This document shows, in pieces, positions 10,462-15,933 of a stretch of DNA of 64,000 bases. The position numbers and the translations under genes were made by a program. How positions within the stretch are numbered: the first letter of the stretch is position 1; each line of letters begins with the position of its first letter. The notes beneath the pieces were generated by a model that saw only the letters and a list, made by a program, of their open reading frames with translations, was not told the DNA's origin and did no database searches. The DNA comes from Oscillospiraceae bacterium (lineage in GTDB: Bacteria; Bacillota; Clostridia; UMGS1840; HGM11507), in NCBI GenBank assembly GCA_015068665.1, contig SVKB01000004.1, positions 62,001-126,000 of the forward strand, read 5' to 3'.

Positions 10462-12045
10462 ATGAAAAAAATATTTTGTATGATTTTGGTTCTATGTTTA
10501 TTTTCGGTATCTGTTTTTGCAAATATCAACTTTACGGATTTAACTGATAGTCACTGGGCATATTCTTACGTCTCGCAACTTGTAACAGATGGGACTGTAA
10601 AGGGGTACGAAGACGGATCGTTCAGACCTGCCAATACGGTTACCCGTGCAGAATTTGTTAAAATGCTTGGTGTTGGTCCTGAGAGAAGAAACACTGATTA
10701 CGCTGATGTTCCCGCCTCCCATTGGGGATATGAATATATTATGACATCTGGTTTTGAAACCTCGGGGAATAATTTTTATCCCGGAAAGAATATAACCAGA
10801 GGCGAAACTATTGAGCTTATATGGAAACGCAACGGATCCAAAAAGGGAATAACTGCCCCAAAATTGATTCTTGATCAGTATAAGAAAAATCCTGATGCCG
10901 TAGCATGGGCATACGGCTACAAGGTTATGGTTGGTGATGATGGGATCAATTTAAGACTGAATGATACATTATCAAGGGCTGAAGCTGCTACATTGATTGT
11001 CAGAAGCCGTGAAATAGATTTTACTAAAGCTCCATCTGCTTTTAAAGATGTAGTTCCTGAATCCACAATGAAAATGTACTTTGAAAGTTTCAAGCTTTTT
11101 GATGATGGACGACTTTATTCACCTGATGCAACTGTAACCAATGGCGAAATGTCTAAAGCGGCTTTGAGACTGGCTGAAGATGAATTTAATTTTATGTATA
11201 GCTCTTATAATGTAAAAGCGTCTTTTGAGCATCCTTATGCAAAGGATGTTACCGTTATTGCTGACCGATGCATAAAAAAGGGAAGTGCTTCCAAAGAGTT
11301 CGCGGATGCAAATGCCAACGTTGAAAATACCCTGTCAGCATTTTCATTTGCAGCACTTCAGAAGACCAACAGTCTGATAAGCTACGGAAATATAAACAAT
11401 ACATATTCCGATATATCAGCTGATATTGACAGCCGAAAAAATGTTATGCTGACTTTTGCGTATGAAAAAGGGATCAGAATGAATTCCGATGGAACTATTG
11501 GCGCTTTGAATAATGCTACTCATAAGGATATTGCAGCATTTCTTATCCAGTTTGATCATCTCATTGGTATGGAAAGTGCTTATTCTACAGCAAAAAATGA
11601 AAATGGAAAATATATTGTAAAGGATGTTAAGCTGAGAAGTAATATCAACTCCTATCCTGCTAATAAAGATGATTATGCGTGTATTATTGACGGTATAGAT
11701 AATTATGTTTACGAACGTCCTTATCCCGGGAGCAAACCGAAAGAATCCTATAATTTTTCAAGAGAGTATAACGATGTCTTTATCGCAAAGCTTGAAAGTT
11801 TGGCAGAGTTTATTAATAAAAATTACGGTGTTGAGGCCGAGCTTGTTATGTATCCTAATCTGACATGGAACAACGGTAAGCATTTCGTTCTGAGATTAGA
11901 ATGTAACGTTAAATCGGTATCAAAAGAAATTTCGACAAAAGAAGCTTTTTCTGATTCGTTGATTACACCTGTTGATGAAATTATTAAACCCGGAGCAAAA
12001 TATTTTATTGAAATTACTATAGAAAATGTTAATTTGTTTTTTTAA
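10462..12045 (+). CDS. Secreted SLH-domain protein (527 residues)
   Basis: This is an exported protein expected to bind a secondary cell-wall polymer through its S-layer homology domains. A signal peptide (MKKIFCMILVLCLFSVSVFA) is followed by three SLH units: a good one at about 24-70 (DSHWAYSYVSQL...GYEDGSFRPANTVTRAEF), a second at about 75-120 (ASHWGYEYI...ITRGETIELI) and a degenerate third near 140-185 (AVAWAYGY...LSRAEAATLI). The rest, about 340 residues, belongs to no family I recognise. I chose the ATG at 10462 because GAGAGGTG precedes it and it begins the signal peptide. It heads the operon that continues into the HprK/PqqD/ABC genes. Confidence 0.9.
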   Translation: MKKIFCMILVLCLFSVSVFANINFTDLTDSHWAYSYVSQLVTDGTVKGYEDGSFRPANTVTRAEFVKMLGVGPERRNTDYADVPASHWGYEYIMTSGFETSGNNFYPGKNITRGETIELIWKRNGSKKGITAPKLILDQYKKNPDAVAWAYGYKVMVGDDGINLRLNDTLSRAEAATLIVRSREIDFTKAPSAFKDVVPESTMKMYFESFKLFDDGRLYSPDATVTNGEMSKAALRLAEDEFNFMYSSYNVKASFEHPYAKDVTVIADRCIKKGSASKEFADANANVENTLSAFSFAALQKTNSLISYGNINNTYSDISADIDSRKNVMLTFAYEKGIRMNSDGTIGALNNATHKDIAAFLIQFDHLIGMESAYSTAKNENGKYIVKDVKLRSNINSYPANKDDYACIIDGIDNYVYERPYPGSKPKESYNFSREYNDVFIAKLESLAEFINKNYGVEAELVMYPNLTWNNGKHFVLRLECNVKSVSKEISTKEAFSDSLITPVDEIIKPGAKYFIEITIENVNLFF

Positions 12046-12058
12046 TGGAGCGTAGAAT

Positions 12059-12724
12059 ATGGATTTTTTGAAAAAAACTAATAAAACCTTTGGCGTTATT
12101 GCGTGTCTTATGACAATATTTTCAAATTTTATTTTACTTTCAATTGGCACAGGTTTTTTAAGAATAGAATACTATTATGTTACACAGGCGTTGCTTCCGT
12201 GTCTTATTTCCCGAATTTTCCTGATTTTTTGGTGTTTGTATTTTGCTATAGGATATGAGTATGACAAAGCAGTACGTAATTTTGCCCGTTGCCTTATTCC
12301 TTATGTTATTCTTGGAATTATTATATTATTATTAGATACGCCGATGGCATATTTCTTCCTGATCCAGTCCACGACAACGCTGCTTGTACTTATCATGATG
12401 TCAAATATGATAAACCAAAAGAGGTTTGCGTTAAGATCAAAAGCATATGCTGATAAGCTTTATCAACTTAATGTATTGATTGGCTTTTGTATATTTCTTG
12501 TTATTATATATATTGGTCTGAGTGTTCCTATTGCCATAAAAGCACAACCAAGTGAGTACAATATAATGCTTCTTGTTTCTGCTATGGTTTGTCAGGTTTT
12601 TGTTATTGTCGGTATTTTTTGCGTGGATGCTGCGGAAAAGAAATTCAAACAGTCGCTTGAAAGTGGCGCAGTGAAAAAACAAACTCAGGATGCTAAAACG
12701 GAGACTGCTGAAAATGAAAATTAA
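12059..12724 (+). CDS. Polytopic membrane protein of unknown function
   Basis: The protein has 221 residues with about six hydrophobic segments (near 10-32, 42-64, 75-95, 98-115, 135-158 and 167-190) and a hydrophilic C-terminal tail rich in Lys, Thr and Glu. I recognise no family motif. GGAG precedes the ATG by eight bases. It lies 13 bases after the SLH gene and overlaps the HprK-like gene, so it is embedded in this operon and may be a membrane partner of the maturation/export proteins. That role is inference from position only. Confidence 0.65.
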   Translation: MDFLKKTNKTFGVIACLMTIFSNFILLSIGTGFLRIEYYYVTQALLPCLISRIFLIFWCLYFAIGYEYDKAVRNFARCLIPYVILGIIILLLDTPMAYFFLIQSTTTLLVLIMMSNMINQKRFALRSKAYADKLYQLNVLIGFCIFLVIIYIGLSVPIAIKAQPSEYNIMLLVSAMVCQVFVIVGIFCVDAAEKKFKQSLESGAVKKQTQDAKTETAENEN

Positions 12725-13568
12725 TATTGCCGGTATAAACATAGAAATAAAAGGACAAATCTACGATTACTTTAAGTACAGACTTCATAATTATATTGTG
12801 AAGGATGATGTTGATTGTAACATTTCAATATTATGTGAGGAGTGCGACGATATAACCATTCCGGACGGTGAAATAATCCAAAAGAATTCATTCAGGTATT
12901 TCGCAAGTAAGGAGGACTTGTTTTATTGTTACGATATCCTTAAAGATGATAAGTGCTCTGCACTTATAAAAGCAGATAAGAGCTGGACAAATATTACCTG
13001 TCTTATATATGATGTAGAGGATCTTGGCGGAGCGTCGCTTAATATACGTCAATTTAATATGCTTGGCCTTGTTATGAAGTATATTATGATATATCACGGC
13101 GGGCTTATGATACATTCTTCTTCGCTTTCGTATAAGGAATCCGGCGTTATTTTTTCTGCTGACTCGGGAACAGGTAAATCCACACATACACGATTGTGGA
13201 AAAAGGTTTTTGAGGGTGTTGAAATTATTAACGATGATATGCCGGTGATAAGGCTTTTTGATGATGTCTGGTATTTGTGCGGAAGCCCCTGGAGCGGTAA
13301 AACTGAGATAAACATAAACAAAAAAGTTCCTCTCAAAGGCATCGTTTTTCTGGAACGCGGAAAAGAAAATGAGATTGACAGAATGTACGCTCCTGAAAGT
13401 GTACTTAAGTTAATGAAGCAAACATTAATTCCTCCCGGAAAAGCTTTGACATCTGCTGCCATGGCAAATATATCAAAATTACTTGAAACTGTTCCTGCAT
13501 ACAGATTGAAATGCACAATTTCAGAGGAAGCACCCAAAGTCGTTGCTTCTAAATTAAATTTAATATAG
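12714..13568 (+). CDS. HPr kinase-like P-loop ATPase of the PqqD-associated type
   Basis: The C-terminal half of this 284-residue protein has the HPr kinase/phosphorylase core: His at 134 (LMIHSSSL), a P-loop SADSGTGKS at 148-156 and an acidic pair at 174-175 (IINDDMPVI) corresponding to the HprK catalytic aspartates. A second block (GSPWSGKTEININKKVPLKG) follows. It is not true HprK, since the N-terminal domain differs. Such proteins recur beside PqqD-like proteins, and in some lasso-peptide clusters a relative phosphorylates the peptide. The ATG at 12714 (GGAG at 12700-12703) overlaps the preceding gene. Substrate unknown. Confidence 0.8.
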   Translation: MKINIAGINIEIKGQIYDYFKYRLHNYIVKDDVDCNISILCEECDDITIPDGEIIQKNSFRYFASKEDLFYCYDILKDDKCSALIKADKSWTNITCLIYDVEDLGGASLNIRQFNMLGLVMKYIMIYHGGLMIHSSSLSYKESGVIFSADSGTGKSTHTRLWKKVFEGVEIINDDMPVIRLFDDVWYLCGSPWSGKTEININKKVPLKGIVFLERGKENEIDRMYAPESVLKLMKQTLIPPGKALTSAAMANISKLLETVPAYRLKCTISEEAPKVVASKLNLI

Positions 13569-13579
13569 GAGGCTTATTT

Positions 13580-13846
13580 ATGAAAATTAAGGATTGCTTT
13601 GTTCTAAGTGAAATCGGTGGTAGCTATATCGTTGTACCTACAGGTAGCGAAACTGTTGATTTGAATGGTATGATTACTCTTAACGAAACGGGACATTTTA
13701 TGTGGAATATACTTCTTGAAGATACGGATAAGGATAAACTTATCGAAGCATTTATGAAAGAATATGATGTTGATAGGGAAACAGTCAGTCAGGATATTGA
13801 TGAATTTATTGAAAAATTAAAGTCGATTGGAGCTATTTGTGAATAA
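13580..13846 (+). CDS. PqqD-family peptide-binding protein
   Basis: This 88-residue protein matches the PqqD / RiPP-recognition-element fold in pattern: an N-terminal beta region (VLSEIGGSYIVVPTGSETVDLNGMI is the hairpin region), then LNETGHFMWNIL, and helices ending in a VDRETVSQDIDEFIEKLKSIG segment. PqqD proteins bind leader peptides and present them to modifying enzymes; here no radical SAM partner is adjacent. AGGAGG lies nine bases before the ATG. It is placed between the HprK-like ATPase and the signal-peptidase-like gene, with which it overlaps. Confidence 0.85.
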   Translation: MKIKDCFVLSEIGGSYIVVPTGSETVDLNGMITLNETGHFMWNILLEDTDKDKLIEAFMKEYDVDRETVSQDIDEFIEKLKSIGAICE

Positions 13847-14303
13847 TAGAATTTTCAAACCAACCCGTGAATTAATTCCTTTTATAACGGAAATGATCAG
13901 GAATAATAAAAAGGTACAGCTTACTGTCACAGGTAACAGTATGTTTCCTTTGTTAACCCATCTTAGAGATTCCGTTACCGTTAAAGGATCCGATAATTAT
14001 AAGAAATATGATATAATTCTTTATGTGCGTAATAACGGTGATTTGATATTGCATCGCATTGTTAAGGTAAAAAAGGGTATTTATTATTTATGCGGTGATA
14101 ATCAGACTGTTATCGAATATCCGATATATAAGGATCAGATTATCGGTAAAGTCGTATCAGTAAAACGCAAGGATAAGGATTTTGATATAAACAATATTAT
14201 TTATTGCTTATATTCCTTTTTTTGGTGTTTGAATGTAAAAATAAGAAAACCGGCGTTGAGAATTGCTTTGAAGATTTGGGGTGTTATAAAAAATGAAAAA
14301 TAA
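13839..14303 (+). CDS. S24/S26-type signal peptidase-like protein with Ser/His residues
   Basis: This 154-residue protein carries a signal-peptidase-type catalytic segment: Ser34 in TGNSMFPLL and His72 in DLILHRIVKV, followed by YYLCGDNQ. Usual bacterial type I peptidases pair Ser with Lys; a His at this site is typical of the SipW/archaeal/ER (S26B) class, so a Ser-His dyad is likely. Unlike those, the membrane segment appears to be near the C-terminus (about 119-135). The GTG start at 13839 has GGAG at 13829-13832; a TTG at 13827 is the alternative. Overlap with both neighbours indicates cotranscription. It may cleave a leader or signal peptide during export. Confidence 0.78.
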   Translation: MNNRIFKPTRELIPFITEMIRNNKKVQLTVTGNSMFPLLTHLRDSVTVKGSDNYKKYDIILYVRNNGDLILHRIVKVKKGIYYLCGDNQTVIEYPIYKDQIIGKVVSVKRKDKDFDINNIIYCLYSFFWCLNVKIRKPALRIALKIWGVIKNEK

Positions 14304-15933
14304 AACTTCCCTGAAATGGATTATCGGCAACTCCAGGCCGGTTATTCCATTTTTATTAATATCAACAATTGTAAGTGCATTGGCGTCTTTGTGTATGGTT
14401 ATGCTTACATATGTTGGAAAACAGGTTGTGGATATTGCAACCGGTTCTTTTTCAGGAGCTTTTTGGGGCAAGATTGGGTTACTTGTATTGTTTGTTCTGT
14501 TGGAATTGACCTTACAGGTTATTTTCAGCCGGTTAAGTATTACCATAAGCGGGAAAATGGAAATCGGGATAAAAAACGGTATTTTCAGTAAAATACTGAA
14601 AAAAGATATTTCTTCAATATATAAGTATCATTCCGGCGATTTGTTAAACCGCATGACTGCCGATGTTCATATTATCACAGGCGCTTTTACAAATATTGTT
14701 CCGGCTGTGGTTGCATTACTTACGAGGCTTATCGGAGCCTTTTTAATGCTGTTCTGGCTGGATGCAACATTTGCTTTAATTTATCTTATCTGCGGTCCGA
14801 TTTTTTTGATTACTACAAGAATCTATAGTGCTAAAATGAAGTCACTTCACAAAAAATGTCAGGAAAGTGACGGGAATATAAAATCCTTTATACAGGAGGC
14901 TATTGCTAATATTCTTGTTATAAAAGCCTTTAAAACGGAAAAACCTGTTTCTGAAGAAGCTGAAAAATTACAACTGATTAATTATAATTACAAACTGAAA
15001 AGAAATACAATCAGTATTATAGCTAACATTTTTGTTTTTATTGCATTTACTTTCGGTTATTATCTTGCATTGTGCTGGGGAGCTTACAAGCTCTCAAAAG
15101 GAATGATTACCGTCGGAACGCTTACTGCAATGATGCAACTGGTGTCACAGGTTCAGACACCTTTTAAAAATCTTTCCGGTATTATTCCACAGTATTATCA
15201 GGCGATTGCATCAGCTGAACGTATTCTTGAAATTGAAAATCTCAAGGAAGATGTTGAAGGCATGGATAAGGAAAGCTTATCCGGAATATATTCTGAAGCC
15301 GAGAAAATTATTTTTGAAAATGTCTCTTTCTCCTATGACGAAAATAATACAGTTGTAAATAATTTTTCATATGAGATCAATATCGGAGATTTTATTTCGG
15401 TAAGCGGCAGGTCCGGGATTGGTAAAAGCACAATTCTTAAGCTGTTACTTGGTGTTATAAAACCGGAAAACGGGCAGATTTATCTTTTGTTAAAAGACGG
15501 AAATAAAATACCTGTGGATGAAAAAACCAGAGGATTGTTTTCATATGTTCCACAGGGAAACATGATTTTATCGGGAACAATTGGGGATAATATCAGGTTT
15601 TTCAATAATGAGCTTAGTGATGAAGATGTTATAAAAGCCTGCAAACTGGCAAGAATTGATGAGTTTATAAACCAACTTCCCGATGGACTTGATACAGTGA
15701 TAGGCGAGCACGGTATTGGTTTATCTGAAGGACAGGTTCAACGTGTTGCAATTGCTCGTGCTCTTATATCGGAAGCACCGGTAATTCTACTTGATGAAGC
15801 TACCTCGGCTCTTGATGAAAAAACTGAAAAAGAATTTTTAGAAGGATTGAAAACAATCCAAAGAAAAACTTGTATAATTGTATCGCATAAACAGGCTACG
15901 TTAGATGCATGCGATAAGAAAATTATGTTTTAG
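14293..15933 (+). CDS. ABC exporter, fused permease and ATPase
   Basis: This is a half-transporter of 546 residues: a six-segment permease domain (about 1-310) then a nucleotide-binding domain with Walker A at 372-380 (GRSGIGKST), the signature LSEGQVQRVAIARAL, Walker B VILLDEATSALD and the H-loop IIVSHKQA. It has no N-terminal C39 peptidase domain, so leader removal, if any, must come from elsewhere, such as the adjacent Ser/His peptidase. Its start overlaps that gene by eleven bases. Exporters of this size commonly carry peptides, lipids or drugs; the PqqD context favours a peptide. Substrate unproven. Confidence 0.85.
   Translation: MKNKTSLKWIIGNSRPVIPFLLISTIVSALASLCMVMLTYVGKQVVDIATGSFSGAFWGKIGLLVLFVLLELTLQVIFSRLSITISGKMEIGIKNGIFSKILKKDISSIYKYHSGDLLNRMTADVHIITGAFTNIVPAVVALLTRLIGAFLMLFWLDATFALIYLICGPIFLITTRIYSAKMKSLHKKCQESDGNIKSFIQEAIANILVIKAFKTEKPVSEEAEKLQLINYNYKLKRNTISIIANIFVFIAFTFGYYLALCWGAYKLSKGMITVGTLTAMMQLVSQVQTPFKNLSGIIPQYYQAIASAERILEIENLKEDVEGMDKESLSGIYSEAEKIIFENVSFSYDENNTVVNNFSYEINIGDFISVSGRSGIGKSTILKLLLGVIKPENGQIYLLLKDGNKIPVDEKTRGLFSYVPQGNMILSGTIGDNIRFFNNELSDEDVIKACKLARIDEFINQLPDGLDTVIGEHGIGLSEGQVQRVAIARALISEAPVILLDEATSALDEKTEKEFLEGLKTIQRKTCIIVSHKQATLDACDKKIMF

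Follow-up and report, generated by a model that had tools for sequence, protein, structure and literature searches.

A 64,000-nucleotide stretch of an Oscillospiraceae bacterium genome (GenBank assembly GCA_015068665.1, contig SVKB01000004.1, positions 62,001 to 126,000; hereafter the window, to whose numbering the operon coordinates refer) encodes, in one operon, an HprK-like kinase, a PqqD-family peptide-binding protein, an S26-type peptidase and an ABC exporter. This operon is a real, conserved, trans-acting peptide maturation and export system, and it is probably a single-copy machine for the phosphorylation, maturation and export of scattered peptides that accompany surface proteins. The precursors were found outside the window, mostly beside surface-protein genes, and thus suggest a so far undescribed type of companion peptide at the cell surface. 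While the parts are of known kinds, their arrangement, with scattered precursors beside surface proteins, the kinase as the sole evident modifying enzyme and an S26 peptidase replacing the B2 protease of lasso-peptide systems, appears undescribed, and no description of it was found in the literature searched.

Scattered precursors and their surface-protein neighbors

A preliminary description of the window had noted that the operon contains no radical SAM enzyme, cyclase or short precursor gene, and this holds for all three. The precursor is absent from the window only. When 40 kinase neighborhoods were retrieved and their genes clustered, a 40-66 residue open reading frame (ORF) was often found directly 5' of the kinase gene in other Clostridia, with a leader of the form MKxYxKPxLxx...(E)xIA (~20 loci). 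These kinase-side ORFs, present in other genera, constitute one family in which the Met, Tyr and Pro of MKxYxKPxxxVVELxxxExIA are invariant. The refuting outcome named in the preliminary description, a kinase, PqqD, S26 and ABC quartet that always lacks a conserved short ORF, did not occur. A profile built from the kinase-side ORFs and refined with members of the order identified 17 precursor copies in the window's own genome, every one outside the window, on contigs C6, C8 (three), C10, C12, C16, C20, C21, C22, C23 (six) and C41; the C22 copy lies 51 kb upstream of the window. These ORFs are preceded by Shine-Dalgarno sequences and share the consensus MKKYIKPELxxxKIxxxxIAS-GLSDWLExx...ITTYExxS, with cores of 24-28 residues in which acidic residues exceed basic ones by 4-7. 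No family in Pfam or NCBIfam matched the precursor, the nearest relevant model being that of the paeninodin lasso precursor (11.5 of 27 bits). The earlier suggestion that the product is a peptide with its gene at another site, either phosphorylated or cleaved from a leader, is supported: peptides with leaders of the PqqD/HprK-kinase type (PMC10368454, PMC9266682) are encoded in trans, and their phosphorylation is probable. The large number of precursors, their dispersal and their pairing with surface proteins go beyond that suggestion.

Precursor and kinase occur together. Among the 391 genomes of the class that were searched, all 53 with a precursor (E<=1e-3) also have the kinase. With the profile's training genomes excluded, the kinase is present in 26 of 26 precursor genomes as compared to 88 of 364 background genomes (p 3.8e-18, in a test that ignores shared ancestry). 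In the family designated f2, precursor orthologues have nonsynonymous divergence (dN) of 0-0.10 and synonymous divergence (dS) of 0.12-0.42, and scattered second copies have a dN of 0.06-0.10 and a dS of 0.34-0.52. Since dN is below dS, the precursors are constrained coding genes under purifying selection. Genomic linkage, co-occurrence and purifying selection together identify an encoded leader-core precursor linked to its enzymes, as expected of a ribosomally synthesized and post-translationally modified peptide (RiPP).

In the window's own genome, a precursor usually starts ~10-20 bases 3' of the gene for a large secreted protein. These adjacent proteins have a common, Ig/Fn3-like C-terminal domain, a profile of which gives 28 matches in the genome, 25 of them stronger, and 13 of the 17 precursors have one of these 25 genes no more than 2.1 kb away (p 1.2e-14, uncorrected for four near-identical copies on C8 and C12 that are not independent). 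Among the paired proteins, some match Pfam domains (esterase, F5/8 type C, GLUG or SLH) and others match none. Scattered precursors of genomes G025, G216, G224, G142, G131, G112 and G326 mostly occupy the same position 3' of secreted proteins. A further candidate precursor is present at locus L167, from a Herbivorax record. The four near-identical precursors on C8 and C12 (loci L093, L095 and L148 of the window's genome, G000) are located 3' of four giant related surface proteins of ~1500-2000 residues, which marks surface protein and peptide as a module that was duplicated recently; a repeated 71-residue ORF is present near at least two of them. On C41, a second SLH-family gene (L144, 2669-4258) lies near a divergent precursor, and a precursor in G003 (L146) has a similar context, with aldose epimerase-like and isochorismatase-like genes.

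Similarity between lineages is 0.26-0.37 in the leader. Core similarity is approximately zero between genomes and reaches 0.23 within this genome, 0.48 within G025 and 0.93 within f2, with G216 an exception at just 0.05. Conservation of the core mainly within a genome is consistent with contact between the core and a partner common to the whole genome, and is hard to reconcile with diversifying antimicrobials.

The operon and its conservation across Clostridia

The operon and the SLH gene at its head comprise the following features.

10462..12045, + strand: SLH surface protein, 527 residues; Pfam SLH E 6e-23, signal peptide, two tandem SLH trimers, novel C-terminal alpha/beta domain
12059..12724, + strand: polytopic membrane protein; ~5-6 transmembrane helices, charged C-terminal tail
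12714..13568, + strand: HprK/ScmC-like kinase, 284 residues, proposed peptide Ser/Thr kinase; NCBIfam ScmC E 3.5e-7
13113..13115, + strand: kinase His134, catalytic; invariant in 29/29 homologues, part of the lasso-kinase His-Lys-Asp-Asp set (PMC9266682)
13176..13178, + strand: kinase P-loop Lys155 (SGTGKST); invariant in 29/29 homologues
13233..13238, + strand: kinase Asp174-Asp175 (NDD); invariant in 29/29 homologues
13580..13846, + strand: PqqD-family peptide-binding protein (RiPP recognition element, RRE), 88 residues; PF05402, 64 bits, E 1.6e-17
13839..14303, + strand: S26/S24-type Ser-His peptidase, 154 residues, proposed leader peptidase; Peptidase_S24 and signal peptidase I matches, invariant Ser34, His72 and Asp87
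13938..13940, + strand: peptidase Ser34, nucleophile (GNSMFP), from the homologue alignment
14052..14054, + strand: peptidase His72, general base (LHRI), from the homologue alignment
14293..15933, + strand: ABC exporter, proposed exporter of the mature peptide; ABC_membrane and ABC_tran, without C39

The exporter gene is followed by a gene for a RecD2-like helicase, and three operon junctions overlap by 8-11 bases. Order and spacing of the five overlapping or closely spaced genes, from membrane protein to exporter, agree with the preliminary description, with refined coordinates, and the profile matches and invariant residues listed above bear out its HPr-kinase-like ATPase with P-loop and acidic pair, its PqqD-type and signal-peptidase-like proteins, and its exporter lacking a C39 peptidase.

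The kinase matched no Pfam family. ScmC is its top curated NCBIfam model (30 bits as compared to a 125-bit curated cut-off), HprK-related kinases A and B match more weakly, all below their curated cut-offs, and the sole match of a kinase profile among PDB sequences was phosphoenolpyruvate (PEP) carboxykinase (E 0.024). The genome contains a single kinase copy. The nearest NCBIfam models of the PqqD protein are lasso-type PqqD chaperones, again below cut-off; a weak second PqqD-like ORF (L094 11019-11348; G000 C8:30037-30204), beside an OPT-transporter-like gene, is apparently unrelated to the operon. The peptidase matches Peptidase_S24 and signal peptidase I at ~E 1e-7, its Ser34, His72 and Asp87 are unchanged in 24/24 homologues, and the Ser34-His72 pair places it with the Ser-His (SipW/ER type) members of the S26 signal peptidase-like family.

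The AlphaFold model of the SLH protein (predicted local distance difference test score, pLDDT, 89.6) contains two SLH trimers and a C-terminal domain. The best Foldseek match was the SLH domain of Bacillus anthracis Sap (TMt 0.77), and no PDB match to the C-terminal domain was found. The protein thus resembles Sap and Paenibacillus SpaA in its SLH trimer fold (TMt up to 0.77), and is set apart from them by two predicted trimers, its C-terminal domain and a genomic link to a peptide-kinase-like gene. The preliminary description's idea that it might be cargo of the peptide system was weakened: its signal peptide is of the Sec type, and it is conserved as a distinct protein and as a neighbor of the kinase across the class, rather than as random cargo. 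The membrane protein matched no Pfam family, and its homologues adjoin the SLH gene in G003, G002 and G001; in a comparison of profiles of SLH-adjacent membrane proteins, which may or may not be one family, the window protein reaches at most 68% probability with group c40 and <10% with group c11.

Kinase homologues are present in 9 of 9 genomes of the order and in 115 of the 391 class genomes, part of the latter homologues being shorter and probably of a different subfamily. A shorter HprK-like kinase (~235 residues), probably also of a different subfamily, lies directly 3' of a dihydrofolate-reductase-like ORF in L063 and L068. Outside this order of bacteria, the recurrent gene order is PqqD, S26, ABC, c5, small ORF, kinase and SLH protein, where c5 is a secreted protein of ~300 residues, and SLH homologues adjoin the kinase in most retrieved loci across the class. 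The c5 partner model (pLDDT 69) is composed of Ig/Fn3-like beta sandwiches, with a global TM-score too low to name a relative. Mature c5 N-termini begin TTTTxY (e.g. L059 10843-11676), which resembles the ITTYxL end of many cores; this likeness could be chance or donor-strand mimicry, and a core that mimics the c5 N-terminus by donor-strand exchange was rejected as a general explanation in the window's own genome. In several lineages, capsule genes (Wzz, CpsB/CapC, CpsD-like) or NTP_transf_5 are found nearby, which suggests a possible link to wall or capsule polymers. At f2 loci L100, L101 and L104-L106, PqqD-S26-ABC and a precursor adjoin capsule genes (CpsB/CapC, CpsD-like), and the kinase, SLH and membrane protein genes are elsewhere in the genome. 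The YxxP leader is fused to Cys-rich cores in L065, L070 and L207, and a radical SAM-cluster gene lies near the kinase in L065, L067 and L070, so that the leader, PqqD and kinase appear to be a module common to chemically different peptide systems.

Lasso peptides and other explanations

Tyr4 and Pro7 of the YxxP motif are invariant over 35 peptides, with the Tyr 17-18 and the Pro 14-15 residues before the I-A site, which is Thr-Ala in the G216 copies. Phosphorylated lasso peptides have YxxPxL at -17 to -12 and Thr or Ile at -2, and a PqqD-like B1 protein speeds kinase phosphorylation of the lasso precursor (PMC10368454); the kinases PadeK, ThcoK and PsmK, with a catalytic His-Lys-Asp-Asp set, target a C-terminal Ser (PMC9266682). 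Both leader features are found here, as are an RRE/B1 PqqD-type protein, an HprK-like kinase with the same catalytic set, an ABC exporter and, as in paeninodin, a C-terminal Ser (11/14 distinct peptides of this genome, p 2.6e-9), all of which likens the system to those of paeninodin (PadeK), BsfA/BsfK and pseudomycoidin (PsmK), and would favor a phosphorylated lasso peptide with cyclase and protease genes at other loci. Unlike those systems, however, this one has an S26 Ser-His peptidase and many trans precursors beside surface-protein genes. The B2 leader protease PF13471 had no match in the genome at E<=1 (~6% of the sequence is missing), no asparagine-synthetase-like cyclase was found, the two partial PF00733 matches being MnmA and GuaA by sequence reading, and the cores mostly begin with Ser or Ala at the predicted cleavage site, without a consistent Gly1 or a fixed Asp/Glu at positions 7-9. 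A lasso-peptide system was rejected on account of the missing B2, the missing cyclase and cores that break the Gly1 and Asp/Glu 7-9 rule; the version with distant enzymes is largely refuted for this genome and retains very little probability.

Two further systems bear comparison. SynChlorMet cassettes, which we take to combine a kinase-like ScmC with a PqqD-like ScmD, likewise pair an ScmC-like kinase, the best curated model here, with a PqqD partner, but the ScmC match is far under its cut-off, radical SAM Scm genes are lacking, and SLH, S26 and ABC genes are present. Prochlorosins are one-to-many RiPPs, in which one enzyme set (LanM) serves many scattered precursor genes; the single modification set and scattered precursors are alike, the enzymes are different, and we know of no pairing of each prochlorosin precursor with a surface protein.

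It is also conceivable, albeit unlikely, that the peptides are ordinary RiPPs, secreted signals or antimicrobials merely co-regulated with surface-protein genes. An RRE, a kinase, a protease and an exporter are the usual equipment of secreted bioactive RiPPs, and Cys-rich cores on the same leader beside radical SAM genes (L065, with L067 and L070 in its cluster) resemble natural-product biosynthesis; however, up to 17 scattered copies share one core motif, each is tied to a different secreted protein, this pairing is repeated in other genera, and the conservation of cores inside genomes argues against diversifying antimicrobials. The adjacency of the SLH gene and the kinase in most lineages, the kinase's presence throughout the order, and the f2 set of SLH, kinase and membrane protein genes that stands apart from PqqD-S26-ABC would agree with a kinase acting mainly on a constitutive surface component (SLH protein, membrane protein or wall glycan), with the peptide link secondary. 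This is improbable, in that the kinase resembles peptide kinases and is present in every precursor genome, and SLH proteins, being Sec-exported by their signal peptide, are poor substrates for a cytosolic ATP-dependent kinase. As the kinase is distantly related to both HprK and PEP carboxykinase, its substrate could instead be HPr or a small metabolite, amid neighbors clustered by chance; we give this almost no credence, as the kinase is co-located with PqqD, S26, ABC and precursor over many families, and is present in every precursor genome.

Several observations weigh against a machine for companion peptides, in addition to the shared ancestry and non-independent copies noted with the two tests above. 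In f2, PqqD-S26-ABC is split from the kinase, SLH and membrane protein genes, and the kinase might therefore have another substrate. G002 has the full operon, yet a short-ORF search detected no precursor in this 88% complete genome. No gene for the C-terminal domain occurs within 2.1 kb of 4 of the 17 precursors, and roughly half of the genes with this domain lack a precursor. As the Fn3-like fold is generic, binding between peptide and domain is a candidate only. The C-terminal Ser is lineage-specific and therefore only a candidate phosphorylation site: f2 peptides end in Ile, and Ala, Asn, Lys or Asp is the last residue of many others.

A putative pathway for companion peptides

In the order of steps that we infer, PqqD would bind the leader MKxYxKPxLxx..., and the HprK-like kinase, whose presence is what suggests a modified core, would then phosphorylate that core, most likely on Ser/Thr, with the C-terminal Ser as the likeliest site in this lineage. 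Cleavage by the Ser-His S26-type peptidase after the conserved (I/T)-A would free the core from its leader, and an acidic linear peptide of ~26 residues would leave the cell through the ABC exporter. Outside the cell, the peptide may work with the adjacently encoded surface protein, which usually has the common Ig/Fn3-like domain at its C-terminus; the peptide would probably serve in docking, assembly or wall attachment, with the double-SLH protein and the membrane protein as putative wall-side partners. More tentatively, the phosphopeptide may be a structural companion, as opposed to a signal or antibiotic, that has its own dedicated export and docks the surface protein or links it to a wall or capsule polymer. 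If so, this would be a sorting route in which tag and protein travel separately.

RiPP-type machinery is usually studied as a source of antibiotics or signals encoded in compact clusters, and the same parts here look repurposed as general cell-surface equipment of gut Clostridia. With one enzyme set for many scattered precursors, cluster-based genome mining would miss these peptides. Should the adjacent surface proteins depend on the peptide for their placement or assembly, this would constitute a new principle of surface display, and a widespread, unannotated peptide family would gain a role.

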